Positions 40,691 to 57,285 of a stretch of DNA of 64,000 nucleotides are shown here, piece after piece. The notes under the pieces are model-generated. The model was not told the origin of the DNA. It saw only the letters and a program-made list of their open reading frames with translations, and made no database searches. This DNA is from Terriglobales bacterium (GTDB lineage Bacteria > Acidobacteriota > Terriglobia > Terriglobales > Acidobacteriaceae). The stretch is taken from contig DASRER010000022.1 in the NCBI GenBank assembly GCA_035651995.1, positions 186,001 through 250,000 on the forward strand, written 5' to 3'. A program made the position numbers and the translations under genes. Each line of letters starts with the position of its first letter. Position 1 is the stretch's first letter.

Positions 40691-42028
40691 GTGAAGCTGT
40701 TGCTGCGTAGTCTTGTCTTTATCGGGCTTTTGTTGCCTCTCGGCGCCTCAGCCACCACCTACTTTGTCACGCCGGCCGGGAGCGGCACCACCTGCACTGC
40801 GGCGGCGCCTTGCTCGCTGACCACCGCGGCGGGCAAAACGAATCCCGGAGACATCGTTCAGCTTGCGCCGGGAACCTATTCGGGCACTTTTTCGATTACG
40901 CGGTCGGGCTCAGCCGCGGGAGGGAAGATCACCTACCGCGGACACGACGGCACCGGCTGCCCGACAACGCCCCTTGCCGACAAGAACTCGCGCGGCGTGC
41001 GTCCCGCCCCAACAGCCGTTGTGACCGGCGGTTTTTCGATTTCGGCCAGCTTCATTCGTATTGAGTGCGTCAAGGCGATTGCCAACCCCATCGCCTTCAC
41101 CAACGGAACACGATCGGACATTGACCTGCTGGACAGTTATATGGACGCGTCTACGAACCCCGGCCACGGCAAGATCTTCGGCGCGGAAGGCTGCGACAGC
41201 AGTGATGAAACCTGCTTTGCTTCGAACATCTTCGCGGCCCGCAACTACGCGTTCGAGCCGTCTCTCAGCTTCTACTTGCGGTGCAACAACTGCACTATCC
41301 AGGACAACGAGAGCGAACGGCCAATCAACGCCGGTGACGGCGATCACGTGCAATTCTTCGGCAATAACCTGACGTTCCAGGGAAATTACTTCCATGGGAG
41401 CGTCTTCGCCGATGCCGTAAACGCGCACACCGATTGCTTCCAGTCCTGGAACATCGGGCAGCTCGGTGAAGTAGCCCGGAACATCACGATTACGCGCAAC
41501 ACCTGCATGAATATCGATGAATGCGTGCTCGTGCGTAACCTGGGCTCGACCAGCAGCCACCAGAACTTCACGATTACCAATAACCTGTGCGCGTTCTCGC
41601 GCATCGGCGGCAACATTCAGGGTGATGGCGAGCTGGAGAACGTGGGCGGCACCAACAACGTGCTGCACAACACCTACATTCAGATGACGCAGGGCTTCGA
41701 CAACGGCACGGTCGCCAACTTCAAGAACAATCTATTGGCGAACGGCGCGCAGCTTGTGGTTGAGTGCAACGGCGCCTGCGCTTCCGTGTCGCAGAGCAAC
41801 AACCTGAACCTCGGTTCCAACCTGTCGTCGTTCGTGAGCGCCGCCACGTCGGACTTCCACCTGTCGAGCTCGGCGAGCACCGCGATCAACCGCGGCGCCA
41901 CCGGGCTTGGCATCACGATCGACCACGACGGCAACCCGCGCGACTCGCTGCCCGACATTGGCGCGTTCGAGTTCGGATCAGCGAATACGCCGCAGAGTCT
42001 GACGAACGTGCAAGTGACGGTTCGCTGA
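40691..42028 (+). CDS. Secreted right-handed parallel beta-helix protein
   Basis: 445 residues from GTG 40691, with SD GGAG. A signal peptide (LLLRSLVFIGLLLPLGASA) is followed by AxTYFVTPAGSGTTCTAAAPCSL, the entry to a beta-helix (choice-of-anchor-Q/right-handed helix type), and repeated xNITITRNTC-like rungs. It ends in HDGNPRDSLPDIGAFEF, the usual capping motif. Cys pairs are frequent and suit an extracytoplasmic place. Such folds are common in polysaccharide lyases and C5-epimerases, so it may act on the EPS. Catalytic residues were not identified. An intrinsic terminator follows. Confidence 0.8.
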   Translation: MKLLLRSLVFIGLLLPLGASATTYFVTPAGSGTTCTAAAPCSLTTAAGKTNPGDIVQLAPGTYSGTFSITRSGSAAGGKITYRGHDGTGCPTTPLADKNSRGVRPAPTAVVTGGFSISASFIRIECVKAIANPIAFTNGTRSDIDLLDSYMDASTNPGHGKIFGAEGCDSSDETCFASNIFAARNYAFEPSLSFYLRCNNCTIQDNESERPINAGDGDHVQFFGNNLTFQGNYFHGSVFADAVNAHTDCFQSWNIGQLGEVARNITITRNTCMNIDECVLVRNLGSTSSHQNFTITNNLCAFSRIGGNIQGDGELENVGGTNNVLHNTYIQMTQGFDNGTVANFKNNLLANGAQLVVECNGACASVSQSNNLNLGSNLSSFVSAATSDFHLSSSASTAINRGATGLGITIDHDGNPRDSLPDIGAFEFGSANTPQSLTNVQVTVR

Positions 42029-42056: not shown

Positions 42057-42089
42057 ACGGCGGAGCATCAAAATTGGCTCCGCCGTTTT
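42057..42089 (+). terminator. Rho-independent terminator after the beta-helix gene
   Basis: ACGGCGGAG (42057-42065) and CTCCGCCGT (42078-42086) form a perfect 9-bp stem around a 12-nt loop, followed by TTTT (42086-42089). This is the best intrinsic terminator in the window and separates the beta-helix gene from the polymerase gene. Confidence 0.85.
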
Positions 42090-42138
42090 GCAGCGTCTAA
42101 ACGCTCAGGCGGCTGATCCAGCCGTCCGCTCCAACATC

Positions 42139-43503
42139 ATGGAAACCCAGCAGATCGCATCGGCGAGCCCCTTCGGGTTGGCGCTCACTATCCTGATGGG
42201 TGTTTTGCTGCTGGCGCTGCCGCGGAAGCACGCGATCATCCCGCTGGCCTTCATCACCTGCTATACGACGTTTGGCCAGAACATCTATATCGCCGGCATG
42301 AACTTCTACATGCTGCGCGTCCTGGTCTTGTTCGGGTTCCTCAGGCTGCTGGTCCGACAAGATGCGCGGAGCTTCGGCTGGATGAGGATGGACACCGCGG
42401 TCCTGGCCTGGTCGACGTGGAGCGTGATTGCGTACACACTGCTGTGGCAGACATCGGCGTCGCTGATCAACGCGCTTGGGTATGCTTACGACGCGCTGGG
42501 GCTCTACTTTCTCAGCCGCGCTCTGATCCGGGAAGTCGAAGACATCAAGCACGTTTGCCGCGTTTTTGCCGTCATGCTGGTTCCGCTGGCGCTGTGCATT
42601 TGCGTCGAGAAGGCAACCGGCCGGAATCCGTTCTACGTTCTCGGCGGCGTGCCTGAGTTCACCGAGCTTCGCGAAGGTGTGCTGCGCTGCCAGGGACCGT
42701 TTCGTCATCCGATTCTCGCCGGCTCGTTTGGCGCCGCCTGGTTTCCGCTCTTCGTGGGACTGTGGTGGCAGGGCCGCGGCAACCGTGCGATGGCGTTGCT
42801 GGGAATCGCATCGTCAGGCATCATCACCTTGCTCTCCGGCTCGAGCGGACCCGTGGGAAGCCTGCTGGCAGCCGTGGTTGGCCTCATGATGTGGCGCTTC
42901 CGCAATTACATGCGGCTGGTCCGCTGGGGATTCGTCCTGTCGATCATCGCGCTCGATGTGGTGATGAAGGATCCGGTTTGGTTCATTTTCGCCCGCTTCC
43001 GGTTCTTCTCTGGATCGACCGGCTGGCACCGCAGCTGGCTGATCGACCGCACGATCGCCAATTTCTCCGACTGGTGGCTGGTCGGCACCAAGAGCGTTGC
43101 CGAGTGGGGCGTGTACGCCGGCGACGTAACCAATCATTTCATCGAGCAGGGAGCGCGCTCCGGCTTCTTCACGCTGCTCTTGTTCGTTTGGGTTGTGGTT
43201 CTCGCATTCTCGCAGATCGGCCGGGCGGTGCGCGGCGCCCGGAATGAGCTGCGGAAGGTCCAGATGCTCGTGTGGGCCGTCGGATGCTCGCTGCTGGCGC
43301 ACCTGGTGAACTTCTGGAACGTAAGCTACTTTGATCAGAACGTCGTGAACTGGTATCTGGCACTGACGATGAGCACGGCCGCGTTCGCGGTCTACTGCCG
43401 TGCTTCGGCCGCAAAGAAGGTCGAGGTTGGCGCAACCGACGTCGGCGACGAAAATCTCGATCTGGTCCCGGCTCTTCCCGAAATGCAGCATCCGCAGCCC
43501 TGA
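42139..43503 (+). CDS. O-antigen ligase/polymerase-like membrane protein (Wzy/WaaL type)
   Basis: 454 residues from ATG 42139. About ten membrane helices with a large periplasmic loop (about residues 265-335, with RFRFFSGSTGWHRSWLIDRT and WGVYAGDVTNHFIEQGARSG) fit the Wzy_C layout. Arg and His in the loop are the residues that ligases and polymerases of this superfamily use. It is presumably the EPS polymerase, or the exosortase-A-associated O-glycosylation-ligase-like variety. No other polymerase candidate is present. Confidence 0.82.
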   Translation: METQQIASASPFGLALTILMGVLLLALPRKHAIIPLAFITCYTTFGQNIYIAGMNFYMLRVLVLFGFLRLLVRQDARSFGWMRMDTAVLAWSTWSVIAYTLLWQTSASLINALGYAYDALGLYFLSRALIREVEDIKHVCRVFAVMLVPLALCICVEKATGRNPFYVLGGVPEFTELREGVLRCQGPFRHPILAGSFGAAWFPLFVGLWWQGRGNRAMALLGIASSGIITLLSGSSGPVGSLLAAVVGLMMWRFRNYMRLVRWGFVLSIIALDVVMKDPVWFIFARFRFFSGSTGWHRSWLIDRTIANFSDWWLVGTKSVAEWGVYAGDVTNHFIEQGARSGFFTLLLFVWVVVLAFSQIGRAVRGARNELRKVQMLVWAVGCSLLAHLVNFWNVSYFDQNVVNWYLALTMSTAAFAVYCRASAAKKVEVGATDVGDENLDLVPALPEMQHPQP

Positions 43504-43544: not shown

Positions 43545-44585
43545 ATGGTAATCCACAGCCTGGATCCGTTGACCGACCCCCGATGGCCTGAATTCCTCGA
43601 ACGCCATCCCAAGGCGTCGGTGTTCCACAGCGTCGGATGGCTGCGCGCGTTGGCCGTGACGTACGGTTACCGGCCAGTGGTGCTGACTGGCTCCGCGCCT
43701 GGCGAGCCGTTACGTAACGGAGTTCTGTTCTGCGAGGTCAAGAGTTGGATCACGGGGCGCCGACTGGTCTCGGTGCCGTTCTCCGATCACTGCGATCTGC
43801 TGCTGCAGGAACCTGGCGATGGTGGCGAGTTCGTCGAATTCCTCAGCGCTGAAGTCAAGCGCCAGGGCCTCAAGTATGTCGAGTTCCGGCCGCGGACCGA
43901 GTTTGGCGGTGAGGCCGCTCATCTCACCAGGTCAGGGGATTTTGTCCTTCACACGGTCAACCTTGACCGCAGCGAGCAGGAAATCCTGGAAAGCTTCCAC
44001 AAGGATTCCATCCGCAGAAAGATAGCGCGAGCCGAGCGCGAGAAGCTGACCTTCGAAAAGGGAGTCAGCGCGGAGCTCCTGGAGGGCTTTTATCGCCTGA
44101 TGGTAATTACCCGTAAGCGCCACGGCCTCCCACCAGCGCCCATTGCATGGTTCTCCAGCCTGATTCGTAATCTGGGCTCGGCGGTACAGATCTGGATCGC
44201 GTGCCGCGAGCGGCAGCCGGTCGCGGGCATGCTGACCCTGTCGTTCAAGGATTCCACGGTCTACAAATACGGCTGCTCGGATGCGCGCTACAACAACCTG
44301 GGTGGGATGCCGTTCTTGTTCTGGATGAGGATTCTGGCAGCCAAGGCAGAGGGCAGCCGCGAGCTCGACCTCGGACGCTCCGAAGCCGACAACATGGGGC
44401 TGATTACCTTCAAGCGCAGACTCGGCGCCAGCGAGTCGCCCCTCACGTACTGGAGGCTGCCGGCGAACCCCAGAGCCGAAGCGGCGCCCGGTGGATTCCT
44501 CGCCTTTTCGAAGCGGGTCGCGGTTCATACACCGGATTGGCTGCGCATTGGAGTGGGCCATCTTCTGTATAAACACCTCGGTTGA
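43545..44585 (+). CDS. FemAB-like acyl/peptidyl transferase, PEP-CTERM type
   Basis: 346 residues, the length of the XrtA/PEP-CTERM-associated FemAB protein (TIGR03019-like). Features: WLRALAVTYGYRP near the start, IRRKIARAEREKLTFEKG in the middle, and KYGCSDARYNNLGG plus RELDLGRSEADNMGLITFKRRLGA at the end, the GNAT-like C-terminal domain. FemAB proteins use aminoacyl-tRNA or a similar donor; in EPS loci they likely acylate or modify a sugar unit. Mechanism inferred from family. Confidence 0.85.
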   Translation: MVIHSLDPLTDPRWPEFLERHPKASVFHSVGWLRALAVTYGYRPVVLTGSAPGEPLRNGVLFCEVKSWITGRRLVSVPFSDHCDLLLQEPGDGGEFVEFLSAEVKRQGLKYVEFRPRTEFGGEAAHLTRSGDFVLHTVNLDRSEQEILESFHKDSIRRKIARAEREKLTFEKGVSAELLEGFYRLMVITRKRHGLPPAPIAWFSSLIRNLGSAVQIWIACRERQPVAGMLTLSFKDSTVYKYGCSDARYNNLGGMPFLFWMRILAAKAEGSRELDLGRSEADNMGLITFKRRLGASESPLTYWRLPANPRAEAAPGGFLAFSKRVAVHTPDWLRIGVGHLLYKHLG

Positions 44586-44637: not shown

Positions 44638-46680
44638 ATGCCTTCCTTTCGACCAAGCAGATTGAGCAGCGCAGGACCTCTTCTAGGCATGGCAGTATTG
44701 CTGCTGTGCGGTTGCCTCTCTTATGCCGCGGAGATCCTCGTGATCCGCACGCCCGATGCCGCTGACGAGGCGGAGCAGATCAAGGGCATTGCCGAATTCT
44801 ATGGCCTGGGCATCCATGCCGTGGATGCCTCCTCCGTACAGTCTGTAGCGCAGGCGTTAACTCGCCTCGCGGACAGACATACCGTCGCGGTGCTGGTGGC
44901 GCAGGACGCGCTGCCAGCATTGCGAAGGGACGCCGTCGTCAACGCGCTGCGCCGGCCAAACAAGGCCATTCCGCTCATGATTTTTGATATCCACGGCAAT
45001 TCGGAACCCCTGAACTCGTGGTCTGACGGCGCGGTGCGCGGATGTGGGACCTCATCGCCGGCGCCGGCCGGAGCTGTGTTGGTGATCGACAAGGACGCGG
45101 CGATAGCGCGCAATCTGGCTGGCTGGCGCTTGCCGGCAGTTTCCGCGCCAGCGTGTGATCTGCAACCCGCCGAAGGACGCGCCCAGAATCTGATCGTCGC
45201 GCAGGCAGGCGCCTGGCGAAGCAGCATCCTGGTGCGCACGCAATCGAGGCCAGGCGAGGTGTACTACGCAGCTCGCATGGTGCGCTCCGGGGAGCCGATC
45301 AAGGTGGCCCCGCTGGCCCTCCCGGAGGTTTTTTCTTCGGCGGCGACTTATTTCCTCTTTTTCCGGCATGCGGCCGGTGACTATGCGTGGCATTACGACG
45401 CGCAGTACGCCAATCTGACCATCGATGACCCGTGGCTGACCGAACCCTACGGCCACCTTGCGTATGGAGCTTTGCTCACGGAGATGCAGAAGCACCGCTT
45501 CCATACCACGATTGCCTTCATCCCGTGGAACTTTGATCGCAGCGAGCCGGACGTCGTCACGCTGTTTCGCGAGCACCCAGAGCACTACTCTATCGCCGTT
45601 CACGGCGACGACCACACGCACCAGGAGTTCGGTCTTAGCAGCACGCCACGCGAGCACGTGGCAAAGATCAAGCAGGCCGTGGCGAGAATGGAAAAATTCT
45701 CTTCACTCACGGGGCTGCCCTACGATCGCTTCATGGTCTTTCCGCACTCCGTCGGACGCGAAGAGTCATTCATTGACCTCAAACGCTATGGATTCTTGGG
45801 GACAGCGAACTCCTTGAATGTTCCGTCTGACAAGCCGTTTCCGACCGACCCGGAGTTCCTGCTTCGGCCATTCACGCTGCGCTATGCGAACTTCCCCAGC
45901 CTCTTCCGGTACTTCGGGGAGGGGCAAATCCGCCGTCTCGATGTCGCGATCCAGATTTTTCTTGGCAATCCGGTCTTGCTGTACGGACACGAGGGACTGT
46001 TTGAAGACGGCCCCACAGCGTTCAATGGCACCGCGGACTTCATCAACCGTTTGCAGCCTGCAACGCGGTGGGCAAGTCTGGGAACAATTGCCCGGCACCT
46101 GTACCTGATCCGTCTGCGCGACGACGGCGGCTACGACGTCCGCATGTTCTCGCCTGAAATGGTGCTCAGCAATCCGGGTCCCCGGGATGCAGTGTTCCAT
46201 GTCGAGCGGCCGAACCGAAACGCGATTGCCTCGGTCGTGACCGTAGACGGTGAGCCGGCGCCGATCGACAATACCGGCTCGCCCCAAAGGATGCGTTTGT
46301 CGATTCCGGCGGGGCAATCGAGGACTGTCCGAATCACCTACCAGAACGACCTGGACCTGGCGCACGAGGACATCAGCAAGTCGAGCCTGTACTCACGGGC
46401 CCTCCGGTTGGCCTCGGACTTTCGCGACTTGTACCTGCTTCGTTCCAGAGTCGGTCGCATGCTGGCGGATGCGTACTATAGCAATGGGCTGGATTCCTTC
46501 GAGCTCCGCCTCGAACGGCAGTGGCCCTCCTACCTGGCGATGTTTACGGGGCTGGCGGCCCTGGTCTGGTATGTCCGGCGCCGCCTGCGAAAAAAGCGCG
46601 CGGTGAGAACAGCCAAACAGGCCCGCACTGAGCATCTTCACGCTGCACCCTCGTCGGTGGTCGCGCCCAGCAATGACTGA
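44638..46680 (+). CDS. Membrane-anchored polysaccharide-deacetylase-like protein
   Basis: 680 residues from ATG 44638; the frame is open from 44491 inside the femAB gene but a signal (LLGMAVLLLCGCLSYAA) follows only here. The first 230 residues are a two-lobed region of unclear family. A NodB-like catalytic region follows (DDPWLTEPYG, TIAFIPWNFDR, AVHGDDHTH), with the Asp and His ligands in place. A C-terminal helix (MFTGLAALVWYV, RRRLRKKR tail) anchors it in the inner membrane with the enzyme in the periplasm. It may remove acetyl groups from the growing EPS. Overlaps the next GT2 gene by 8 nt. Confidence 0.75.
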   Translation: MPSFRPSRLSSAGPLLGMAVLLLCGCLSYAAEILVIRTPDAADEAEQIKGIAEFYGLGIHAVDASSVQSVAQALTRLADRHTVAVLVAQDALPALRRDAVVNALRRPNKAIPLMIFDIHGNSEPLNSWSDGAVRGCGTSSPAPAGAVLVIDKDAAIARNLAGWRLPAVSAPACDLQPAEGRAQNLIVAQAGAWRSSILVRTQSRPGEVYYAARMVRSGEPIKVAPLALPEVFSSAATYFLFFRHAAGDYAWHYDAQYANLTIDDPWLTEPYGHLAYGALLTEMQKHRFHTTIAFIPWNFDRSEPDVVTLFREHPEHYSIAVHGDDHTHQEFGLSSTPREHVAKIKQAVARMEKFSSLTGLPYDRFMVFPHSVGREESFIDLKRYGFLGTANSLNVPSDKPFPTDPEFLLRPFTLRYANFPSLFRYFGEGQIRRLDVAIQIFLGNPVLLYGHEGLFEDGPTAFNGTADFINRLQPATRWASLGTIARHLYLIRLRDDGGYDVRMFSPEMVLSNPGPRDAVFHVERPNRNAIASVVTVDGEPAPIDNTGSPQRMRLSIPAGQSRTVRITYQNDLDLAHEDISKSSLYSRALRLASDFRDLYLLRSRVGRMLADAYYSNGLDSFELRLERQWPSYLAMFTGLAALVWYVRRRLRKKRAVRTAKQARTEHLHAAPSSVVAPSND

Positions 46681-47740
46681 ACCGCAAGTGAAAACGCGAC
46701 CGCTGGTCAGCATCGTCACGCCCGTCTACAACGAGGCGGGACACATTGCGGAGTGCATCGAGAGCGTGCTGGCGCAGACGTACCAGAATTGGCAGTACAC
46801 CGTCGTCGACAACTGCAGCACCGACGGTTCCGGCGAGATCGCGCAACGCTACGCCGCCAAGGACGCCCGAATCACCGTGCACAGAAATGCCGAATTTCTA
46901 CGCGCGATCCCTAATCACAACGTCGCCCTGCGGCAACTCCAGCCCGAGGCCAAGTATTGCAAGGTCGTGTTCGCCGACGACTGGCTCTTTCCGGAGTGCG
47001 TCGAGCGAATGGTTGCGCTGGCCGAAGCCCATCCGTCGGTCGGAATCGTGTCCGCTTACGCGCTGCAGGGCTCGAAGGTACTCTGGACGGGACTGCCGTA
47101 TCCCAGCAGCATCGTCTCGGGGCGCGAGCTGTGCCGCAAGATGTTTCTTGAGCACTGCTATGTTCTGGGCTCAGCGACGGCAATGCTCTACCGCGCCGAA
47201 CTGGTGCGTGGCCGCGATCCTTTCTTCAACGAAGGGAACCTGCACGCCGATACGGAAACGCACGTCGCACTGCTGCGCGATTGCGATTTCGGCTTCGTGC
47301 ACCAGGTGCTGAGCTACAGCCGTGACCGCGAGGAGTCGCTGAGTTCATTCTCGTCCGACATGAACACGCACTTTTCGTCAACTCTGCAACTGCTTGTGAA
47401 GTACGGGCCCGACTTCCTCGCACCCGACGAGCTGGAGCGATGCACGCAGGCACATCTCTCCATGTACTACCAATATCTCGGCAAGAACGTGATCTTGGGC
47501 CGGAACGACGCATTCTGGATGTATCACCGGCTGAAAATGGCAGAGGCCGGATTTCCGCTGAAGCGTCGCCGGGTCGTCGCCGGATTGCTATCGGCCCTGG
47601 GGGAAGCTCTGCTCAATCCGCAGCACGCACTGGCGCGGCTGCGGTTCCGTCGAGATGCGAACCGGCAAGCGAAGAGACAACCGGCAACCAGCGCTGCTCC
47701 GGGCAAGGTTGCAGCAACCACAATCAAGGAGGGGGGATAG
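46673..47740 (+). CDS. Family 2 glycosyltransferase
   Basis: 355 residues, start ATG overlaps the deacetylase stop. GT-A motifs: LVSIVTPVYNEAGHIAECIESVL, VVDNCSTDGS, KVVFADDWLFPEC (the DD of the DxD position), then FNEGNLHADTETHVALLRDCDFGFVHQVLSYSR. C-terminal 60 residues are basic and likely membrane-associated. A cytoplasmic EPS glycosyltransferase; sugar unknown. Confidence 0.88.
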   Translation: MTEPQVKTRPLVSIVTPVYNEAGHIAECIESVLAQTYQNWQYTVVDNCSTDGSGEIAQRYAAKDARITVHRNAEFLRAIPNHNVALRQLQPEAKYCKVVFADDWLFPECVERMVALAEAHPSVGIVSAYALQGSKVLWTGLPYPSSIVSGRELCRKMFLEHCYVLGSATAMLYRAELVRGRDPFFNEGNLHADTETHVALLRDCDFGFVHQVLSYSRDREESLSSFSSDMNTHFSSTLQLLVKYGPDFLAPDELERCTQAHLSMYYQYLGKNVILGRNDAFWMYHRLKMAEAGFPLKRRRVVAGLLSALGEALLNPQHALARLRFRRDANRQAKRQPATSAAPGKVAATTIKEGG

Positions 47741-47747
47741 AAGCACA

Positions 47748-48860
47748 ATGCGCGCGAACCAGCGCAAGACACAGGCGAAGCTCAACCTGAAGGTCGGCGA
47801 ATGGGTACAGGTGCGTCCGGTGGAGGAAATTCTTGCAACGCTCGACGCCACGGGCCGCTACGAGGGCCTGCCCTTTATGCCCGAGATGCTGCAGTACTGC
47901 GGCAAGCAATTTCGCGTGTACCGCCGTGCCGACAAGACCTGTGACTACCTCAAGGACTGGAGCATCCGCCGGATGACAAACTCGGTCTACCTCGAGGGCA
48001 ACCGCTGCGATGGTTCCGCACACGATGGCTGCGAGGCCGCATGCCTCATCTGGTGGAAAGAGGCCTGGTTGACGCGCGTTCAGAACGAGGTGGCGCCCGG
48101 GCAGGCGCTTGCCGCAGCGGCGCCGAAGCCCAGCCCGGCGCCACAAAACGGGCTCTGCACGGTGGAGAGCATCATCGCTGCGAGCCGCGTGCGCGCGGAG
48201 GATGGGACCGAGCTTTACTCATGCCAGGCGACCGACGTCACCAAGTTCACTTCGTACATGAAGATCTGGGACGTGCGCCAGTACGTTCGCGACGCGCGCT
48301 CCGGAAATTGGCATACCGGCCTCGGCGGCAACGCTCGCGGGGACCGTCTGCTCGAGTTGGCGCTGAGCTGCTTACACGTGTTCCGCGCGGTCCTGATCAG
48401 CTTCTTCAATGAGATTCAGCAGCGCCGACACCACTCCGCTTACATGCGTTATCCGCTCATCCAGGGCAGCGCGGAGAAGACGCCGCTGGAGCGCCTGAAC
48501 CTCCAACCCGGTGAACTGGTGCAGGTGAAGAGCAAGCAAGAAATCATCGCGACGCTCGACCACGACCAGCGCAACCGTGGGCTGTGGTTTGATTCCGAGA
48601 TGCTCCCCTACTGCGGCCGCATCTTCCGCGTCTTGCGCCGGGTGACGCGCATCATCGACGACAAGACGGGAAAACTCCTGATCATCAAGAATCCGTGCAT
48701 CGTGCTCGAAGGCGTGGTCTGCCAGGGAGAGTTCCACCGTCTGTGCCCGCGGGCGATTTACGCCTACTGGCGCGAGAACTGGTTGCGCCGCGTCTCCTCC
48801 GAGGCAATTCCGGAGGGCCGGGAGCTGGAGTGCGCCAAGGGCGCCGAAGCCTGCCGCTAA
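47748..48860 (+). CDS. Duplicated Cys3His-domain protein, function unknown
   Basis: 370 residues from ATG 47748. Two copies of an about 100-residue domain (about residues 13-112 and 244-343) share L-N-L-x2-G-E-x-V-Q-V, E-I-x-A-T-L-D, E-M-L-x-Y-C-G-x2-F-R-V-x-R-R, then L-E-G-x2-C-x-G-x2-H-x2-C and W-x-E-x-W-L-x-R-V. The C-x4-H-x2-C plus the YCG cysteine would bind one metal per copy. The linker (about 113-243) has a SCQATDVTKFTSYM segment and a hydrophobic stretch. I know related single- or double-domain hypothetical proteins from actinobacterial and acidobacterial glycan clusters, with no assigned function. It lies between a GT2 and the deacetylase-GT4 fusion. Confidence 0.75.
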   Translation: MRANQRKTQAKLNLKVGEWVQVRPVEEILATLDATGRYEGLPFMPEMLQYCGKQFRVYRRADKTCDYLKDWSIRRMTNSVYLEGNRCDGSAHDGCEAACLIWWKEAWLTRVQNEVAPGQALAAAAPKPSPAPQNGLCTVESIIAASRVRAEDGTELYSCQATDVTKFTSYMKIWDVRQYVRDARSGNWHTGLGGNARGDRLLELALSCLHVFRAVLISFFNEIQQRRHHSAYMRYPLIQGSAEKTPLERLNLQPGELVQVKSKQEIIATLDHDQRNRGLWFDSEMLPYCGRIFRVLRRVTRIIDDKTGKLLIIKNPCIVLEGVVCQGEFHRLCPRAIYAYWRENWLRRVSSEAIPEGRELECAKGAEACR

Positions 48861-48885: not shown

Positions 48886-51051
48886 ATGATCAGCACCAAA
48901 CTCTATTACCTGCTGAAGCCGCTGCTGCCGTGGCATGTGCGCATGTACTTGCGGCGCTTGCGGGCGCGCCACCGGCGGTCGCTCTTCACGGGCGTTTGGC
49001 CCATCGACCCTCGCGCCGGCGTTGTTCCGCCGGGTTGGCCCGGATGGCCGGAGGGGAAGCAGTTCGCGCTCATCCTGACGCACGACGTGGAGCGCCGCAA
49101 GGGTTACGAGCGCGTGGAGCGCCTCGCCGAGATCGAGGCGCGCTACGGGATGCGATCGTCGTTCAACTTCGTTTCCGAGGGCGACTACCGCGTGAGCGAC
49201 CAGGTATGCGCGGCGCTCCAGCGGGCCGGATTCGAAGTTGGGGTGCACGGCCTCCAGCACGACGACAAGCTTTACAGCTCCAAGCGAAATTTTGCCGAGC
49301 GCGCGGCGCGCATTCGCGAGTACGCGCGCCGATGGAACGCCACCGGTTTTCGCTCACCGTTCATGCAGCACAAGCTCTCCTGGCTGCATGAGTTGGGCCT
49401 GGAGTACGACGCGTCTACTTTCGACACCGACCCGTTCGAGCCGGAACCGGACGCGGTCGGCACGATCTTTCCGTTCTGGGTGCCCGGCCGGAACGGCGAC
49501 GGCTTTGTTGAGCTGCCCTACACCCTGGCCCAGGACTTCACGCTCTTCAAGGTGCTGGGCGAGTCCACCATCGACATCTGGAAGCACAAGCTGGCCTGGG
49601 TGGCCGAGCATGGCGGGATGGCGCTGCTCAACACGCATCCTGACTACATGCAGATGGAAGGGAAGCAGCCTTCGCGTGACGAGTATCCGGTTGCGCTCTA
49701 CGAAGAGTTTCTGGATCACGTGCGCACACGGTACGAGGGCCGGTTTTGGTGCGCCGTGCCGGGCGACGTGGCGCGCTACTACTGTTCGACGCTTCCCACG
49801 CACCAGCGCAACTCACGCAAGAAGATCTGCATGGTGTCGCACAGCGTGTACGAGAGCGACAATCGCATTCGGCGCTACGCGGAAGCGCTGGCCGGCCGAG
49901 GTGACCGCGTCGACATCATTGCTCTAGCGGGCAGCGATTCGATGCTGGACACAACCCAGCTGTGCGGCGTGAACGTGCATCACATTCAATTTCGTAAACG
50001 GAACGAGCGCAGCAAATGGGCGTACGCCACGCAGCTGCTGCGTTTCTTCTGGGCGGCGGCGCGCAAGCTGCGCGAGCTGCATTATCACGTGGGTTTCGAC
50101 CTGATCCACGTGCATAACATTCCGGATTTCCTGGTCTTTGCCGCATGGTATCCGCGCCTGACCGGCGCCAGGCTGATTCTCGACATTCACGACGTCGTTC
50201 CCGAGCTGTTCTCCAACAAGTTCAACGTGCCGCAAACGAACTTTTACATTCGCATGCTGAAGGCGATCGAGCACGCGTCGTGCGCGTTCGTGGACCACGT
50301 GATCATCGCCAACGATCTGTGGTTCGAGAAGGTGGTGGCGCGCTCAGTGCCGCGAGCGAAGTGCTCGGTCTTCCTGAACCACGTGGATCGCACCAAGTTT
50401 TACCGCCATACGCGCAAGCGCAACGACGGAAAGTTCATCGTGATCTTTCCCGGCACGTTTCAGTGGCACCAGGGACTCGATATCGCGGTCCGCGCCTTCG
50501 CTCGCGTCCGCGAAAAAGTGCCCAACGCGGAATTCCATTTGTACGGCGGCGGAGGTGGTGGCGATCGCCAGGCGGAACTTCAGGCGCTGGCAAGGGAGTT
50601 GGGCGTCGGCGAGTATGTGAAGTTTTTTGGCAGCCGCCCGCTGGAGGAGATTGCCGACGTCATCGCCAACGCCGATCTCGGCGTAGTGCCCAAGCGCGCC
50701 GACTCATTCGGCAATGAGGCATACAGCACCAAGATCATGGAATTCATGTCGCAGGGAATTCCGGTCGTGGCTTCGCGCACCAAGATCGATCAGTTCTACT
50801 TCGACGACTCGGTCGTCCGCTTTTTTCCTTCAGGCGACGACAAGGCAATGGCCGATGCGATGCTCGAAGTGATCGTGAATCCCGCTGTGCGCCAGAGTTT
50901 GATCGCTAACGGTGAAGAGTACGTGCGCCACAACAGCTGGGAAGAGCGGAAGGCCGACTATTTGAATCTGGTTGACCGCCTCACGACGGAAGACTTTGTC
51001 GGCCTGCGGGAAACGGCCGAAGCCGCCGCCGGCGCCAGCGGTGACGACTAG
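48886..51051 (+). CDS. Polysaccharide deacetylase-GT4 glycosyltransferase fusion
   Basis: 721 residues. Residues about 60-290 are a NodB-type deacetylase: LTHDVERRKGY, SSFNFVSEGDYRV, GVHGLQHDDKLYSS (HxxxxH ligand) and TGFRSPF. Residues about 310-710 are a GT4 glycosyltransferase (GT-B fold): KICMVSHSVYESDNRIRRYAEAL, FDLIHVHNIPDFL, VIFPGTFQWHQGLD, YGGGGGGDRQ and the E-x7-E region GNEAYSTKIMEFMSQGIPVVA. Fusing the two activities in one cytoplasmic chain suggests transfer and deacetylation of the same lipid-linked sugar. Overall start is the ATG nearest the hypothetical gene. Confidence 0.88.
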   Translation: MISTKLYYLLKPLLPWHVRMYLRRLRARHRRSLFTGVWPIDPRAGVVPPGWPGWPEGKQFALILTHDVERRKGYERVERLAEIEARYGMRSSFNFVSEGDYRVSDQVCAALQRAGFEVGVHGLQHDDKLYSSKRNFAERAARIREYARRWNATGFRSPFMQHKLSWLHELGLEYDASTFDTDPFEPEPDAVGTIFPFWVPGRNGDGFVELPYTLAQDFTLFKVLGESTIDIWKHKLAWVAEHGGMALLNTHPDYMQMEGKQPSRDEYPVALYEEFLDHVRTRYEGRFWCAVPGDVARYYCSTLPTHQRNSRKKICMVSHSVYESDNRIRRYAEALAGRGDRVDIIALAGSDSMLDTTQLCGVNVHHIQFRKRNERSKWAYATQLLRFFWAAARKLRELHYHVGFDLIHVHNIPDFLVFAAWYPRLTGARLILDIHDVVPELFSNKFNVPQTNFYIRMLKAIEHASCAFVDHVIIANDLWFEKVVARSVPRAKCSVFLNHVDRTKFYRHTRKRNDGKFIVIFPGTFQWHQGLDIAVRAFARVREKVPNAEFHLYGGGGGGDRQAELQALARELGVGEYVKFFGSRPLEEIADVIANADLGVVPKRADSFGNEAYSTKIMEFMSQGIPVVASRTKIDQFYFDDSVVRFFPSGDDKAMADAMLEVIVNPAVRQSLIANGEEYVRHNSWEERKADYLNLVDRLTTEDFVGLRETAEAAAGASGDD

Positions 51052-51257: not shown

Positions 51258-52310
51258 ATGAAAGTACTGTTGACCGGGCACAAAGGCTATATCGGCGCCG
51301 TGGCAGCGCCCATGTTACTCGCCGCCGGCCACGAGGTGGTCGGGCTCGACACCGACCTGTTTGCCGGATGCGACCTGGGCCGCACGCTGCCCGACCTGAT
51401 TCCCGGCATCCGCAAGGACCTGCGCGACCTGTCGCGATCGGACCTGGCCGGCTTCGACGCTGTGTTTCATCTCGCGGCGTTGTCGAATGATCCGCTGGGC
51501 AACCTGGCGCGCGAGCTGACCTACGACATCAATTGGCGTGCTTCGGTGCGACTTGCCGAGCTGGCGAAGGCGGCGGGCGTGAAGCGCTTCGTTTTCTCGT
51601 CTTCGTGCAGCACGTACGGCGCGTCGGGCGACGAAATGCTCGACGAAACCGCGCCGCTCGCGCCGGTCACGGCCTACGCCGAGTCGAAGGTGTACGTGGA
51701 GCGCGACGTGGCCAAGCTGGCCGACGACAACTTCAGCCCCACCTACATGCGCAACGCCACCGCGTACGGCGCGTCGCCGCGGCTGCGGCTCGACCTGGTG
51801 CTGAATGACTTCGTTGCCGCTGCCTACACCACCGGAAAGATCTTCATCAAGAGCGACGGCTCGCCGTGGCGGCCCATCGTCCATATCCAGGACATCATCG
51901 GCGCCGCGATTGCCGTGCTGGCTGCGCCGCGCGAGGTCGTGCACAATCAGACGTTCAACGTCGGCCGCAGCGATGAGAACTACCGCATCCGGGAGCTGGC
52001 CGATATCGTTCTTCAAACCGTGCCCGGCTCGACCGTGGAATATGCCGCCGGCGGCGGCCCCGACAAGCGCTGCTACCGGGTGACATTCGCGAAGATCAAC
52101 CGCATGGTGCCGGGCTTCGTTGCACAGTGGACGGCGCGCAAGGGCGCGCAGGAGCTCTACGACGCCTATCGCGCCGCCGGCCTCACGCGCGAAGAAGTTG
52201 CCGCCGGCCGCTACACGCGGCTGGTACAGATCCAGAAACTGATGAAATCCGAACAGCTCGATGCGTCACTGCGCTGGACGGCGGCTGCGGCCGCGCCGGC
52301 GGTGAGCTGA
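51258..52310 (+). CDS. NAD-dependent epimerase/dehydratase (extended SDR)
   Basis: 350 residues. Glycine motif TGHKGYIG near the start, [16 protein letters not shown] (catalytic Ser) and YAESK (Tyr-x3-Lys) mark an extended SDR acting on a nucleotide sugar. The leading unit of the nucleotide-sugar cassette, 15 nt before rfbC. Substrate is unknown; the cassette has a CDP-glucose-forming enzyme, so a CDP-sugar is possible. It opens a new transcription unit after a 206-nt gap. Confidence 0.86.
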
Positions 52311-52325
52311 GAGGCGAGGCCCGAG

Positions 52326-52904
52326 ATGATCTTCACGGAAACCAGGCTGAAGGGTGCGTTCACCATTGACATTGAGAAGCGCGAAGACAATCGCGGTTTC
52401 TTTGCCCGCGCATTCTGCCAGAACGAATTTGCCCAGCACGGCCTGAAGCCGGTCATCGCGCAGGGCAACGTGGCGTTCAACGCCAAGAAGGGCACGCTGC
52501 GCGGCATGCACTTCCAGTTCCCGCCCAGCGCCGAGACCAAACTGGTGCGCTGCACGCGCGGCGCGATCCTCGACATCATCGTAGACCTGCGGCCCGAGAG
52601 TCCAACTTACCTGCAGCACATCGAGGTCGAACTCAGCGAAGACAACTATCGCGCGCTCTATGTTCCGGAGCGCTTCGCGCACGGCTACCAGGCGCTGCGC
52701 GACAACACCGAAACCAGTTATCAGGTAGGCGAGTTCTATACGCCGGGCAGCGAGGGCGGGTTGCTGTACAACGATCCGCGCCTCGGACTGAAGTGGCCGC
52801 TGCCGATTTCCGTGATCTCCGACAAAGACAAGATGTGGAAGCCTCTGGCTGAACAGGAACAGGAAATGAAGCAACGCATGAGCCTGGAGCCGGCGCGCGT
52901 ATAG
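52326..52904 (+). CDS. rfbC: dTDP-4-dehydrorhamnose 3,5-epimerase-like (RfbC family)
   Basis: 192 residues, normal length. FTIDIEKREDNRGFFARAFC, KGTLRGMHFQ (catalytic His), KLVRCTRGAILDIIVDLR, VPERFAHGYQALRDNTE are family signatures of the double-stranded beta-helix epimerase. With RfbF nearby it may act on a CDP- rather than a dTDP-4-keto sugar; RfbA/B/D are absent from the window. Confidence 0.9.
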   Translation: MIFTETRLKGAFTIDIEKREDNRGFFARAFCQNEFAQHGLKPVIAQGNVAFNAKKGTLRGMHFQFPPSAETKLVRCTRGAILDIIVDLRPESPTYLQHIEVELSEDNYRALYVPERFAHGYQALRDNTETSYQVGEFYTPGSEGGLLYNDPRLGLKWPLPISVISDKDKMWKPLAEQEQEMKQRMSLEPARV

Positions 52905-52935
52905 GCGCCGGCCGCCAGGGTAGTGAGAGGTCGTT

Positions 52936-54267
52936 ATGATTCTGGTCGACAGCGCACTCCAAGCCCGCGAAAAAGAAGGCCGTCCCATCCGCGTCGCCCT
53001 GATCGGGGCCGGCTTTATGTCGCATGGGCTGGCCAATCACATCGTCAACACCACGCCGGGCATGCGCCTGGTGGGAATTTTCAACCGCAAGCCGGAGCGC
53101 GCGGTGGAGTGCTGCCAGTACGCCGGTGTTCGCGACGTTGTCCAGCCGCGCGACCAGCGCGAACTCGATCTCGCCATCCGCGAAGGCAAGACCGTCGCCA
53201 CCGGCGACGCGTTCCTGCTTGCCCGCTCGGCTGAAGTGGACGTTCTGGTCGACGTGACCGGATCGGTGGAGTTCGGCGCGCGCGTGGCGTTCGAAGCGTT
53301 CAAACACCGCAAAGACGTGGTCCTGATGAACGCCGAGATCGACGCCACCATCGGCCCGATCATGCAGAGGTATGCCGACAAGCACGGCGTCATCTTCTCC
53401 GCGTGCGATGGCGACGAGCCCGGCGTGCAGATCAACCTCTACCGCTGGGTGAAGGGCCTGGGCCTGACGCCGCGCGTAATCGGCAACATCAAGGGCCTGC
53501 AGGATCCCTATCGCAACCCGACCACGCAGAAGGGCTTCGCCGAGAAGTGGGGCCAGAACCCGGCCATGGTCACCAGCTTCGCCGACGGCTCCAAGATCAG
53601 CTTCGAGCAGTCGATCGTGGCCAACGCCACCGGCTTCGTAGTCCGTTCGCGCGGCATGTCGCGCGGCATGGACTACAAAGACGACGTGATGAAGATCGGC
53701 AAGCTCTACGACATCGATGAAGTTCGCCGGCTTGGCGGCGTCATTGATTATGTCGTCGGCACGCCCCTCACCAAGGTGTACGTGCTGGCCGAGCATCCCG
53801 ATCCGAAACAGCAGCACTACCTGAGCCTGTACAAGATGGGCGATGGCCCGCTCTACTCGTTTTTCACTCCTTATCACCTCGTCCACTTCGAGGTGCCGAG
53901 CGCGATCGCGCGCGTGGCACTGTTCCGCGATCACCTGGCAAGGCCCCTGGGCGGGCCGGTGGTCGAGGTTTGCGCCTGCGCCAAGCGCGACCTCAAGGCC
54001 GGCGAAGTGCTCGACGACTACGGCATGTACATGACGTACGGCGAAGCGGTGAATGCCGACGAGATGTGCCGCGAACGCTATCTGCCCGAGGGCCTGGTGG
54101 AAGGCTGCGAGCTCAAGCGCGACATTCCGAAAGACGGCGTCCTGACCTACGACGACGTGATCCTGCCACCCAATCGGCTGGCGGATCAGTTGCGCGCCGA
54201 GCAGTATCGCGTGTTCCGCGGCGAGACGTGGCTGGAAGAGCGGGTCACCGCGGGCGCGCACGCTTAA
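52936..54267 (+). CDS. NAD(P)-dependent oxidoreductase with SAF-type C-terminus
   Basis: 443 residues. A Rossmann start IRVALIGAGFMSHGLANHIVN is followed by a homoserine-dehydrogenase-like middle (VDVLVDVTGSVEFGARVAFEAFKHRKDVVLMNAE). The C-terminal part (CACAKRDLKAGEVLDDYGMYMTYGEAV) has the SAF (antifreeze-like) pattern. This protein type recurs beside RfbF- and RfbC-like genes in bacterial glycan loci. Reaction unknown; it presumably reduces or oxidises a nucleotide-linked intermediate. Confidence 0.8.
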   Translation: MILVDSALQAREKEGRPIRVALIGAGFMSHGLANHIVNTTPGMRLVGIFNRKPERAVECCQYAGVRDVVQPRDQRELDLAIREGKTVATGDAFLLARSAEVDVLVDVTGSVEFGARVAFEAFKHRKDVVLMNAEIDATIGPIMQRYADKHGVIFSACDGDEPGVQINLYRWVKGLGLTPRVIGNIKGLQDPYRNPTTQKGFAEKWGQNPAMVTSFADGSKISFEQSIVANATGFVVRSRGMSRGMDYKDDVMKIGKLYDIDEVRRLGGVIDYVVGTPLTKVYVLAEHPDPKQQHYLSLYKMGDGPLYSFFTPYHLVHFEVPSAIARVALFRDHLARPLGGPVVEVCACAKRDLKAGEVLDDYGMYMTYGEAVNADEMCRERYLPEGLVEGCELKRDIPKDGVLTYDDVILPPNRLADQLRAEQYRVFRGETWLEERVTAGAHA

Positions 54268-54297
54268 CCAGCAACAGGGGCCGAACCGGAGAACGTT

Positions 54298-55113
54298 ATG
54301 AAGGTCGTTCTATTTTGCGGCGGTCTGGGAATGCGCATCCGCGATGCGGAGGACATTCCCAAGCCCATGGTGCACATCGGCTATCGGCCGATCCTGTGGC
54401 ACGTGATGAAGTACTACGCCCACTTTGGGCACAAAGACTTCATCCTCTGCCTCGGGTATCGCGCCGACGCCGTGAAGAATTACTTCCTGAATTACAACGA
54501 GTGCGCCTCGAACGATTTTGTCCTGTCAGGCGGCGGGAAAGACCTGAAGCTGATCAACAGCGACATTCACGACTGGCGCATCACCTTCGCCGACACCGGC
54601 ATCAGCTCCAACATCGGCCAGCGCCTGAAGGCGGTCCAGAAATATCTCGAGGGCGAAGAAGAATTCCTCGCCAACTACAGTGATGGCCTGACCGATTTGC
54701 CGCTGCCGCAGCAGCTCGATCACTTCCATCAGCACGGCAAAGTGGCCAGTTTCCTGTGTGTGCGCCCGAACCTGAGCTACCACATTGTTTCGCTGCAGGG
54801 CGGCAAAGACAGCCTGGTCTCCGGCATTCACCCCATCAACAACGGTTCCATGCGCATCAATGGCGGCTTCTTCATTTTCAAAAAGGAGATCTTCAACTAC
54901 ATCCGCGACGGGGAAGAGCTGGTCATCGAGCCGTTCCAGCGCCTGGCGGCGGAGAAGCGCCTCATCGGCTACGCCTACGACGGCTTTTGGGCAAGCATGG
55001 ATACGTTCAAGGACAAGCAGCAGCTCGAAGGTTTGTGCAGTAGCGGGACCGCGCCGTGGGAAGTCTGGAAAAGCAACGGTCGCGGTACCAAGACGGCCAA
55101 GGCCTCAGACTGA
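54298..55113 (+). CDS. rfbF: Glucose-1-phosphate cytidylyltransferase
   Basis: 271 residues, family length. Nucleotidyltransferase signature FCGGLGMRIRDAEDIPKPMVHIGYRPILWHVM, then the RfbF-specific NYFLNYNECASNDF and SDGLTDLPL. It makes CDP-glucose from CTP and glucose-1-phosphate. Normally RfbG (CDP-glucose 4,6-dehydratase) follows; no RfbG or RfbH is in the window. The PIG-L gene starts immediately after its stop codon. Confidence 0.93.
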   Translation: MKVVLFCGGLGMRIRDAEDIPKPMVHIGYRPILWHVMKYYAHFGHKDFILCLGYRADAVKNYFLNYNECASNDFVLSGGGKDLKLINSDIHDWRITFADTGISSNIGQRLKAVQKYLEGEEEFLANYSDGLTDLPLPQQLDHFHQHGKVASFLCVRPNLSYHIVSLQGGKDSLVSGIHPINNGSMRINGGFFIFKKEIFNYIRDGEELVIEPFQRLAAEKRLIGYAYDGFWASMDTFKDKQQLEGLCSSGTAPWEVWKSNGRGTKTAKASD

Positions 55114-55773
55114 ATGCTTCCGCTAAGCCTGCCGCTCGTCGCCGACCGTCCGCTCAAGGTGCTCTGCCTTGGCTCGCATTCTGATGACATCGAGATCGGC
55201 TGCGGCGGCGCCGTCCTGGAACTGATCGCCGGCCGAAAGAACTTGCAATTCACCTGGGTCGTGTTCAGCTCCGGCGGCGGCGCCCGCGAAACTGAAGCTC
55301 GCGCCAGCGCCGACCTGTTTCTCCAGGGTGTAAGGCAAAAAGAAGTGCTCGTCCACGGATTTCGCGACAGCTTTTTCCCGTCCGACTTCCCGAAAATCAA
55401 AGAAACGTTCGAAGAGCTCAAGCGCGTAACGCCCGACCTGGTCCTGACGCACAGCCGCAAGGACGCGCACCAGGACCATCGCGTGGTCGCCGAGTTGACC
55501 TGGAACACATTCCGCAACCACCTTGTGCTCGAGTACGAGATTCCCAAATACGACGGCGACCTCGGGCAGCCCAACGTTTTCATGCCGCTGCGCGCCGCGT
55601 CGTACCAGAACAAAGTGAACTACCTGATGGAAGCCTTCGCCTCGCAGCGCAGCAAACGCTGGTTCCAGCCCGAAACCTTCATGGGCCTCATGCGCCTGCG
55701 CGGCATGGAGTGCAACGCCGAGAGTGGCTACGCGGAGGCGTTCTACGGAAGGAAAGTGACGCTGGGGCTTTAA
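55114..55773 (+). CDS. PIG-L/LmbE-family deacetylase
   Basis: 219 residues, starting directly after the rfbF stop. CLGSHSDDIEIGCGG (H-x-D-D zinc site) and THSRKDAHQDHRVV (second His site) are the family motifs. The fold deacetylates N-acetyl sugars such as GlcNAc-PI or GlcNAc-mycothiol precursors. In this locus it would act on a nucleotide- or lipid-linked amino sugar. Third deacetylase of the locus. Confidence 0.9.
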   Translation: MLPLSLPLVADRPLKVLCLGSHSDDIEIGCGGAVLELIAGRKNLQFTWVVFSSGGGARETEARASADLFLQGVRQKEVLVHGFRDSFFPSDFPKIKETFEELKRVTPDLVLTHSRKDAHQDHRVVAELTWNTFRNHLVLEYEIPKYDGDLGQPNVFMPLRAASYQNKVNYLMEAFASQRSKRWFQPETFMGLMRLRGMECNAESGYAEAFYGRKVTLGL

Positions 55774-55809
55774 TTTTCCGGCCTCAACCGGGACCCCGTC
55801 AACCTGTCG

Positions 55810-57285
55810 ATGGAAAACCTGAAGCAGAAGACGATCAAGGGAGCTCTGGCCAAAATCTGCTCCCAGGGCGCCACTTTCTTCCTGCGCGTCGGCTCGCTCA
55901 TGGTGATGGCCCGCCTGCTCGAGCCGCGGGACTTCGGCCTGGTCGGCATGGTCACCGCTGTCATTGGTGTCCTGAACCTGTTCAAAGACTTTGGGCTCTC
56001 CACTGCTTCGGTGCAGCGCACCAACGTCACCGAAGAGCAGGCCGCGACGTTGTTCTGGATCAACGTGGCGGTAGGCGGAGCCCTGGCGATGATTGCGGCG
56101 GCGGCGGCGCCGGTGCTGGCGACGTTTTACCGCGAGCCCAGGTTGGTGCCGGTCACATTGGTCATGGCTTCGGCGTTCCTGTTCAATGCCGCCGGAGTGC
56201 AGCACTCGGCGCGCCTGCAACGCGAGATGCGTTTCGTTCCGATCTCCATGATCGAGGGGCTGTCGCTGCTGGTGAGCGTAATCGTCGGTATCGCGATGGC
56301 CAAGGTCGGGTATGGGTACTGGTCACTGGTTGTTACAGGGGTGCTTACTCCGCTTCTCTCCACGCTTTCACTCTGGACGTACACCCGCTGGATACCAACG
56401 CGCCCGCACCGCAGGTCTGGCATCCGTTCCATGATGCGCTTTGGCGGAACCGTGACCCTGAATGGCATCGTGGTCTATTGCGCATACAACATGGAAAAGG
56501 TCCTTCTCGGCCGGTTCCTGGGCGCTGAGACCTTGGGAATCTATGGCAGGTCGTATCAGCTGATCAGCATCCCGAACGAGAACCTGAACTCGGCGGTGGG
56601 CGGCGTGACCTTCTCGGCGCTGTCGCGCGTGAAGGACGATCCACCGCGCTTCCGCGCCTACTTCCTGAAGGCGTACTCGCTGCTGCTTGCGCTGACTATT
56701 CCCACGACGACTGCTTTTGCCCTGTTCGCCAATGAAATCATCGTGGTGCTGCTCGGGCAGAAGTGGCATGAGAGCGCGCCGATTTTTCGCCTGCTGGCGC
56801 CAACCGTGCTCGTATTCGCGCTTATCAATCCTCTGGGCTGGCTGCTCATTTCTCTCGGGAAGGTGGGCCGCAGTCTGAAGGTCGCGCTTGTTCTTGCGCC
56901 GGTCGTGATGGCCGGTTACCTCTCGGGCCTGCGCTATGGGCCCACGGGCGTCGCCGCCGGTTATTCGATCGCGATGGCCTTGTGGACGATCCCGCACATG
57001 CTCTGGTGCCTGCACGGCACGCCGGTATCGTTTGGTGATCTGGCCCGCACCATCGTTCGTCCGGCGGCCTCAAGCATGATCGCAGCCGGCGCCGCGCTTG
57101 CAGTCCAGTTGCTGCTCCACTCCATGGCGCCGCTGCCACGGTTGGTGATCGGCGGGCTCGTGCTTGCCGGTGTCTACCTTTTGGTCCTGCTGCTCGTGAT
57201 GGGCCAGAAGGCTGTCTATCTCGACTTGATTTCAACTTTGCGGAAAACCGCTCCTGTCACGAGTGGTGCGGCAGCTTCGGCATAA
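55810..57285 (+). CDS. Oligosaccharide flippase (Wzx-like)
   Basis: 491 residues with about 12-14 membrane helices of the MOP superfamily polysaccharide type. Start KQKTIKGALAKICSQGATFFLRVGSLMVMARLLEPRDFGLVGMVTA matches Wzx/MurJ-like N-termini; the YNMEKVLLGRFLGAETLGIYGRSYQLIS segment is the classic loop of EPS flippases. It moves lipid-linked repeat units to the periplasm. The only flippase candidate in the locus. Confidence 0.9.
   Translation: MENLKQKTIKGALAKICSQGATFFLRVGSLMVMARLLEPRDFGLVGMVTAVIGVLNLFKDFGLSTASVQRTNVTEEQAATLFWINVAVGGALAMIAAAAAPVLATFYREPRLVPVTLVMASAFLFNAAGVQHSARLQREMRFVPISMIEGLSLLVSVIVGIAMAKVGYGYWSLVVTGVLTPLLSTLSLWTYTRWIPTRPHRRSGIRSMMRFGGTVTLNGIVVYCAYNMEKVLLGRFLGAETLGIYGRSYQLISIPNENLNSAVGGVTFSALSRVKDDPPRFRAYFLKAYSLLLALTIPTTTAFALFANEIIVVLLGQKWHESAPIFRLLAPTVLVFALINPLGWLLISLGKVGRSLKVALVLAPVVMAGYLSGLRYGPTGVAAGYSIAMALWTIPHMLWCLHGTPVSFGDLARTIVRPAASSMIAAGAALAVQLLLHSMAPLPRLVIGGLVLAGVYLLVLLLVMGQKAVYLDLISTLRKTAPVTSGAAASA

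Follow-up and report, generated by a model that had tools for sequence, protein, structure and literature searches.

What does a protein built from two copies of a Cys-rich domain, matched by no family in the libraries searched, do in a bacterial exopolysaccharide locus? The question is raised by one gene of a Terriglobales bacterium (Acidobacteriota), which lies in a stretch of 64,000 nucleotides of contig DASRER010000022.1 that was analysed as a whole and is called the window below. The genes of the locus that bear on the question are:

43545 to 44585, plus strand: FemAB/GNAT-type gene (Pfam Acetyltransf_6) of the same locus, the partner type of single-domain relatives
46673 to 47740, plus strand: GT2 glycosyltransferase (Pfam Glycos_transf_2), 7 bp upstream of the two-domain gene
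47748 to 48860, plus strand: two-domain Cys-rich protein of 370 amino acids, with its ATG at 47748 and a TAA ending at 48860
48886 to 51051, plus strand: GT4 protein with a weak deacetylase-like N-terminal part (Pfam), 25 bp downstream of the two-domain gene
51258 to 55773, plus strand: sugar genes of a recurrent cassette (Pfam), coding for an SDR epimerase, an RmlC-like protein, a DRL-type oxidoreductase, a nucleotidyltransferase-like protein and a PIG-L protein
54298 to 55113: the nucleotidyltransferase-like gene, assigned by clustering and without a Pfam match
55810 to 57285, plus strand: Wzx-type flippase (Pfam Polysacc_synt_3)

The two-domain gene is preceded by a Shine-Dalgarno-like stretch, is surrounded by genes on the same strand and occurs as a single copy in its own genome. 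Both neighbors named in the initial annotation, a glycosyltransferase and a deacetylase-GT4 fusion, are present, though the N-terminal deacetylase match of the 48886 to 51051 product scores 14.2 bits against a Pfam cut-off of 23.1. The sugar and export genes at 51258 to 57285 resemble a cassette recurring at other loci, and the DRL-type oxidoreductase among them (52936 to 54267) is one that we take to be DXR-like. At the edge of the locus, the genes at 40691 to 42028 and 42088 to 43503 have no Pfam match at E 0.001; judged by eye, the latter has the look of a membrane polymerase or ligase.

The suggestion that the protein represents an undescribed family is borne out by the searches that were run: Pfam returned sub-threshold matches only (best E 0.035; SH3_15 at E 0.13), PHROGs two weak matches (best E 0.03), NCBIfam none, and the sequences of the PDB nothing up to E 1. 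A literature search found no description of this family, which does not by itself prove that there is none, and the main text of PMC12419801 mentions neither FemAB nor SH3 nor DUF4910. With its own genome counted in each case, matches occur among near genomes in 4 of 61, within the same phylum in 18 of 396 (one of them probably a chance match) and within the same class in 34 of 399 (some of them fragments), as well as in three of 246 genomes from the phylum of a Kutzneria genome, that genome included. A scan of genome_contigs gave 282 loci; among the best 80 of these, judged by their record titles, 59 come from Acidobacteria or Actinobacteria, and the others from Nitrospira, Proteobacteria, Gemmatimonadetes, Rokubacteria and further taxa. 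The family also has six matches in plasmid records. This patchy spread suggests horizontal transfer. A viral origin was rejected, as viral_contigs held no relatives in searches with either the single protein or the alignment. In one genome (L006, G027), a short and apparently degenerate second fragment resembling copy 2 follows the full gene at a distance of about 1.3 kb. The wps-3 gene AMIS_58140 of Actinoplanes missouriensis, placed beside a BioF2-like acetyltransferase gene in PMC13390465, was considered as a homolog and dropped: just one of 67 genomes of the genus has a match, namely the Actinoplanes genome (L068) around which the set was drawn, and these 67 may not include A. missouriensis.

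Examination of the protein itself divides it into the following parts:

47781 to 48083, plus strand: copy 1, residues 12-112, an SH3-like barrel by prediction
48006 to 48044, plus strand: Cys-rich loop of copy 1, C87-x4-H92-x2-C95-x3-C99
48222 to 48233, plus strand: CQAT motif, residues 159-162, with the constant pair C159-Q160; the CQ is also kept in single-domain relatives
48336 to 48431, plus strand: long hydrophobic or amphipathic helix between the copies, residues 197-228 (DSSP, hydropathy)
48492 to 48800, plus strand: copy 2, residues 249-351, an SH3-like barrel by prediction, with the loop C325-x4-H330-x2-C333

The duplication of a domain of about 100 residues, claimed at the outset, is clear: the copies are 44% identical over 100 residues without a gap (blastp E 3e-25), and their alignment scores 190, the best of 2000 shuffles being 55. 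The YCG, C-x4-H-x2-C and W-x-E-x-W-L motifs attributed to both are likewise found in both copies of the window protein, with the matched pairs C51/C289, C87/C325, H92/H330 and C95/C333, and with W-K-E-A-W-L in copy 1 corresponding to W-R-E-N-W-L in copy 2. Two further Cys had been overlooked, C99 in copy 1 and C159 in the CQ segment between the copies, and both are constant in the family.

Residues were counted over the 113 two-domain proteins that were left once rows 95% alike had been removed; 112 of them are readable at copy 1, the remaining row having been shortened by trimming so that it carries no letters there. C87, C95, C99, C159 and Q160 are each present in all 112 readable rows. Among these, 79 rows from genome_contigs were found by a pattern that fixes C87, D88, G89, H92 and C95, and the free test of these five residues is given by the other 33 readable rows, which derive from whole-genome searches: C87, C95, C99 and C159 are present in 33/33 and H92 in 32. 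In copy 1, H92 (111 of 112) and R86 (109) are near-constant, while C65 is present in 107 and C51 in 100. In copy 2, C325 and C333 are found in 111/113 proteins, C289 in 106, C317 in 86 and H330 in only 32. C325 and C333 are missing jointly in two mutually related proteins (L147 and L148) and singly in none of 120 rows; these two proteins have a long hydrophobic N-terminal extension and retain C289 and C317 despite the loss. A compensation of C317 loss by an extra Cys in the copy-2 loop was also considered (Fisher p 2.7e-4) and was given no weight, because the extra Cys is absent from nine of the 28 rows without C317 and present in 26 of the 92 that keep it, and because the rows of the alignment are related. 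The first alignment omitted L005, L006 and L022-L031, which are second pieces, fragments, the single-domain L022 (the same gene as L166) and a likely chance match, L023 (G231, E 0.007); L039 and L040 are identical. The 120-row set omitted L001, L003 and L008 (repeats or the window itself), L124, L133 and L136 (repeats), L145 and L152 (masked letters), the single-domain L154-L157, and L153, an internally deleted protein that has neither the CQ segment nor the Cys loop of copy 1 and that we take to be degenerate.

Profile searches also recovered relatives with one domain, preceded by a CQ segment. Eight of these were read whole (L154/L160, L155/L161, L156/L165, L157/L159, L158, L162, L163 and L166), while the matches in G926, G742, G991 and G988 (two pieces) and the second of the pieces in G748 are fragments or broken and were left unclassified. 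All eight have the CQ Cys together with C-x6-C-x3-C, and in the module of L158 these four Cys are the only ones; the CG Cys is missing from two of the eight. The His of C-x4-H is absent from all eight, L163 carrying one at another place in the loop. At least one complete three-Cys loop is present in every whole protein that was read. In a tree of the domains, which rests on few columns, a branch (96/84) has all 25 copy-1 domains on the same side, and the single domains group with 23 of the 25 copy-2 domains (98/93), the copy-2 domains of L018 and L021 falling with copy 1 instead. From this tree and the architecture of the single-domain forms, it seems that the basic unit of the family is a CQ segment followed by a copy-2-type domain.

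The same relatives are tied to one kind of enzyme. Two of the eight (L157 and L158) are fused to a FemAB/GNAT-type protein, and the genes of the other six lie directly downstream of a FemAB/GNAT-type gene on the same strand, that of L162 being flanked by such genes on both sides. The Acetyltransf_6 profile (PF13480) scores above the Pfam cut-off in six of the eight partners and below it in those of L158 (16.7 bits) and L165 (18.8 bits, cut-off 22), the L165 partner also being missed by a custom FemAB profile. Chance adjacency to FemAB-type genes in six to eight of eight cases is very unlikely because the eight genomes hold just 0-4 detected Acetyltransf_6 matches each, a tally in which the two weak partners are not listed. 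The window protein itself is not homologous to these partners, and Pfam finds no Acetyltransf_6 or GNAT domain in it.

Taken across both architectures, the constant set is C-x7-C-x3-C in the two-domain proteins plus the remote CQ Cys (C159), with equivalents of all four in 8/8 single-domain forms, and these four Cys are the possible metal ligands. Hence, of the metal-type conservation proposed initially, the constancy of Cys as in a metal site stands, while the conserved site is a different one from the shared C-x4-H-x2-C unit: its His is near-constant in copy 1 (H92) but mostly lost in copy 2 (H330) and absent from that position in the single-domain forms. As judged from this conservation, the Cys cluster probably holds a metal. 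The 13-residue loop of one barrel (C87, C95 and C99) would join with C159 of the CQ segment to bind a single ion, most likely a structural zinc and less likely an Fe-S cluster, and copy 2 may carry a second, variable metal site. Disulfide bonds between the constant Cys are another possibility, though no signal peptide is seen in the sequence. Four constant Cys in the arrangement C-x7-C-x3-C plus a remote C would also suit a redox-active Fe-S cluster or a thiol switch tuning polysaccharide output to the oxygen or redox state; we regard this as decidedly unlikely, since no redox partner occurs among the ten recurrent neighbor clusters named by Pfam and no known Fe-S family is matched in Pfam or NCBIfam.

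AlphaFold2 modeled the full protein from an 80-row alignment with pLDDT 89.9 and pTM 0.88, and a construct of just copy 1 and the CQ segment with pLDDT 89.8 and pTM 0.83; the CQ segment reaches pLDDT 94-96 in the absence of copy 2. The strand pattern of the models (DSSP) fits a small β-barrel, and the Cys loop, at pLDDT 96-97, has little regular secondary structure. For both copies the top structural matches are SH3-like or KOW-type chains, with no Foldseek E below 0.001 and no VIA Z of 8; for copy 1, Foldseek lists nitrile hydratase, YorP, Mind bomb, CAP-Gly, ribosomal and SH3 chains. These scores are modest; each copy is best read as a predicted SH3-like barrel that carries a Cys loop of its own. 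The first VIA rows for the full-length and copy-1 models are the MIB/REP repeats of Mind bomb (Pfam SH3_15), a eukaryotic ubiquitin ligase: 4xi6 gives Z 6.7 (rmsd 2.3 over 70 residues of copy 2) and 6.2 with copy 1, 4tse 6.6 with the full model and 5.6 with copy 1, and 4xi7 6.9 in an alignment spanning both copies (rmsd 11.4) and 6.3 with copy 1. These values lie below the Z 8 guide, the Pfam match to SH3_15 (PF18346; residues 15-33, E 0.13) is weak at 13 bits against a gathering cut-off of 24, and we know of no Cys loop of this kind in Mind bomb. Foldseek with the full model pointed to the C-terminal SH3-like domain of the nitrile hydratase beta subunit (PF02211; E 2.7e-3, probability 0.99, TM-score about 0.2), which has VIA Z 5.2 to that model. 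Membership in that family was rejected: Pfam gives no match, and hhalign against 12 PF02211 domains yields probabilities of 13.8 for copy 1, 3.5 for copy 2 and 2.5 for the single domain, over at most 39 columns. A nitrile hydratase alpha-subunit gene was not found by Pfam among the 12 window neighbors scanned.

The many ribosomal KOW-type chains in the VIA results (Z 4.5-5.8), together with the slightly basic character of the family (net charge averaging +6.8 across 80 rows, with extremes of -4 and +19), raise the alternative of a KOW/SH3-like factor that binds nucleic acid, for instance the long transcripts of exopolysaccharide operons or a tRNA usable by FemAB-type enzymes. Such Z values are in the range that the tool calls a common arrangement, Pfam finds no NusG-type match, and a role in transcription would leave both the Cys set and the FemAB fusions unexplained, making this alternative highly improbable.

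Genomic neighborhoods were compared at 81 loci (80 plus the window) with a reach of 10 kb, some being cut by contig ends, and neighbor types were assigned with profiles or clusters whose seed groups had each been named from the Pfam result of a single representative. In 75 of the 81, one or more of eight glycan gene types are present, in agreement with the glycan-cluster setting annotated initially; these and the following counts are approximate, as a simple gene caller was used and some loci are nearly identical (L039, L040). A GT2 gene is found at 57 loci and a flippase gene at 52, adjacent in 26 and on the same strand in 24 of these. Nucleotidyltransferase (44), C-methyltransferase (36), RmlC-like (35), DUF4910 (32, adjacent in 19), PIG-L (28) and SDR epimerase (28) genes recur as well. 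A FemAB-type gene lies near the two-domain form at just 12 of the 81 loci and next to it at three. Six loci have no tested glycan gene, the same six whether or not FemAB is counted. In Mesorhizobium ciceri the two-domain gene overlaps the flippase gene by 4 bp, with PIG-L, nucleotidyltransferase, methyltransferase, RmlC-like and DUF4910 genes nearby, and at another locus (L060) the flippase gene, as called, begins at the final base of the two-domain gene. On a Bosea plasmid (L197), a gene table of 20 kb, which is incomplete, annotates no glycan gene other than the adjoining divergent Polysacc_synt_3 flippase; this is a minimal context for the flippase link. At two of the six loci without a tested glycan gene, both from Crossiella (L095, L108), the homolog lies outside detected glycan clusters, beside housekeeping-like genes that by eye are FolD- and malate dehydrogenase-like.

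Neighborhoods centered on the metallopeptidase-like DUF4910 protein have been proposed to make a modified surface carbohydrate, and they have epimerase, nucleotidyltransferase, methyltransferase and glycosyltransferase neighbors in common with the loci described here, while the portion of that account considered here names no comparable Cys-rich protein (Das et al. 2014, PMC4000134).

This context brings in the main rival to an accessory role, namely that the protein is an enzyme of an unusual-sugar pathway in which the metal loop and C159-Q160 form the active site, for example to transfer an acyl or aminoacyl group, or to carry out a thiol step, on the sugar produced by the PIG-L, DUF4910, C-methyltransferase and nucleotidyltransferase genes. 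The constant Q160, the near-constant R86 and H92 around the loop, the adjacency of DUF4910 at 19/81 loci and the presence of at least three of five sugar gene types at 32/81 all speak for it. Nevertheless, we consider it doubtful: SH3-like barrels are usually binding modules and seldom catalytic, the single-domain forms lack the C-x4-His and are paired with an acyltransferase-like gene, and 49/81 loci have fewer than three of the five sugar gene types, although many of these are cut by contig ends. The description of the family as one of enzymes, made in the initial annotation, finds no direct support, the predicted fold resembling an SH3-like barrel.

We instead favor an accessory protein with a metal-stabilized loop over a free enzyme because of the gene linkage, the kind of fold predicted and the existence of fusions to acyltransferase-like proteins. 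Specifically, we propose, with a probability of roughly 0.45, that the two-domain protein acts in Wzx-type exopolysaccharide assembly as an accessory, docking protein of the cytosol, made of metal-clipped SH3-like barrels. The amphipathic middle helix would place it at the membrane; the single-domain form may serve FemAB-type acyltransferases that decorate the lipid-linked repeat unit, and the two-domain form, with its flippase and GT2 neighbors, may serve export of that unit. Several observations run against this docking role: the polar Q160, R86 and H92 would also suit an active site, FemAB-type genes are scarce around the two-domain forms, the six loci without tested glycan genes have to be accommodated, and the FemAB-type assignments at L158 and L165 are sub-threshold.

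A bolder extension, which we deem unlikely as a whole, is that the family constitutes a class, not previously described, of metal-clipped SH3-like subunits by which repeat units are licensed for export. Here, the single-domain form would be a dedicated subunit of FemAB-type acyltransferases, the duplicated form would couple the decorated lipid-linked unit to the Wzx flippase, and the four-Cys site, possibly an Fe-S cluster, would act as a switch.

Exopolysaccharide clusters contain many conserved genes without an assigned role, and the present family is widespread and has a sharp motif; a single class of enzymes, the FemAB-type acyltransferases, is indicated by its single-domain members. If the proposed role is true, the family would add a new accessory component to the decoration and export of surface polysaccharides, and would offer a way into the unusual sugar that the DUF4910/PIG-L cassette makes.
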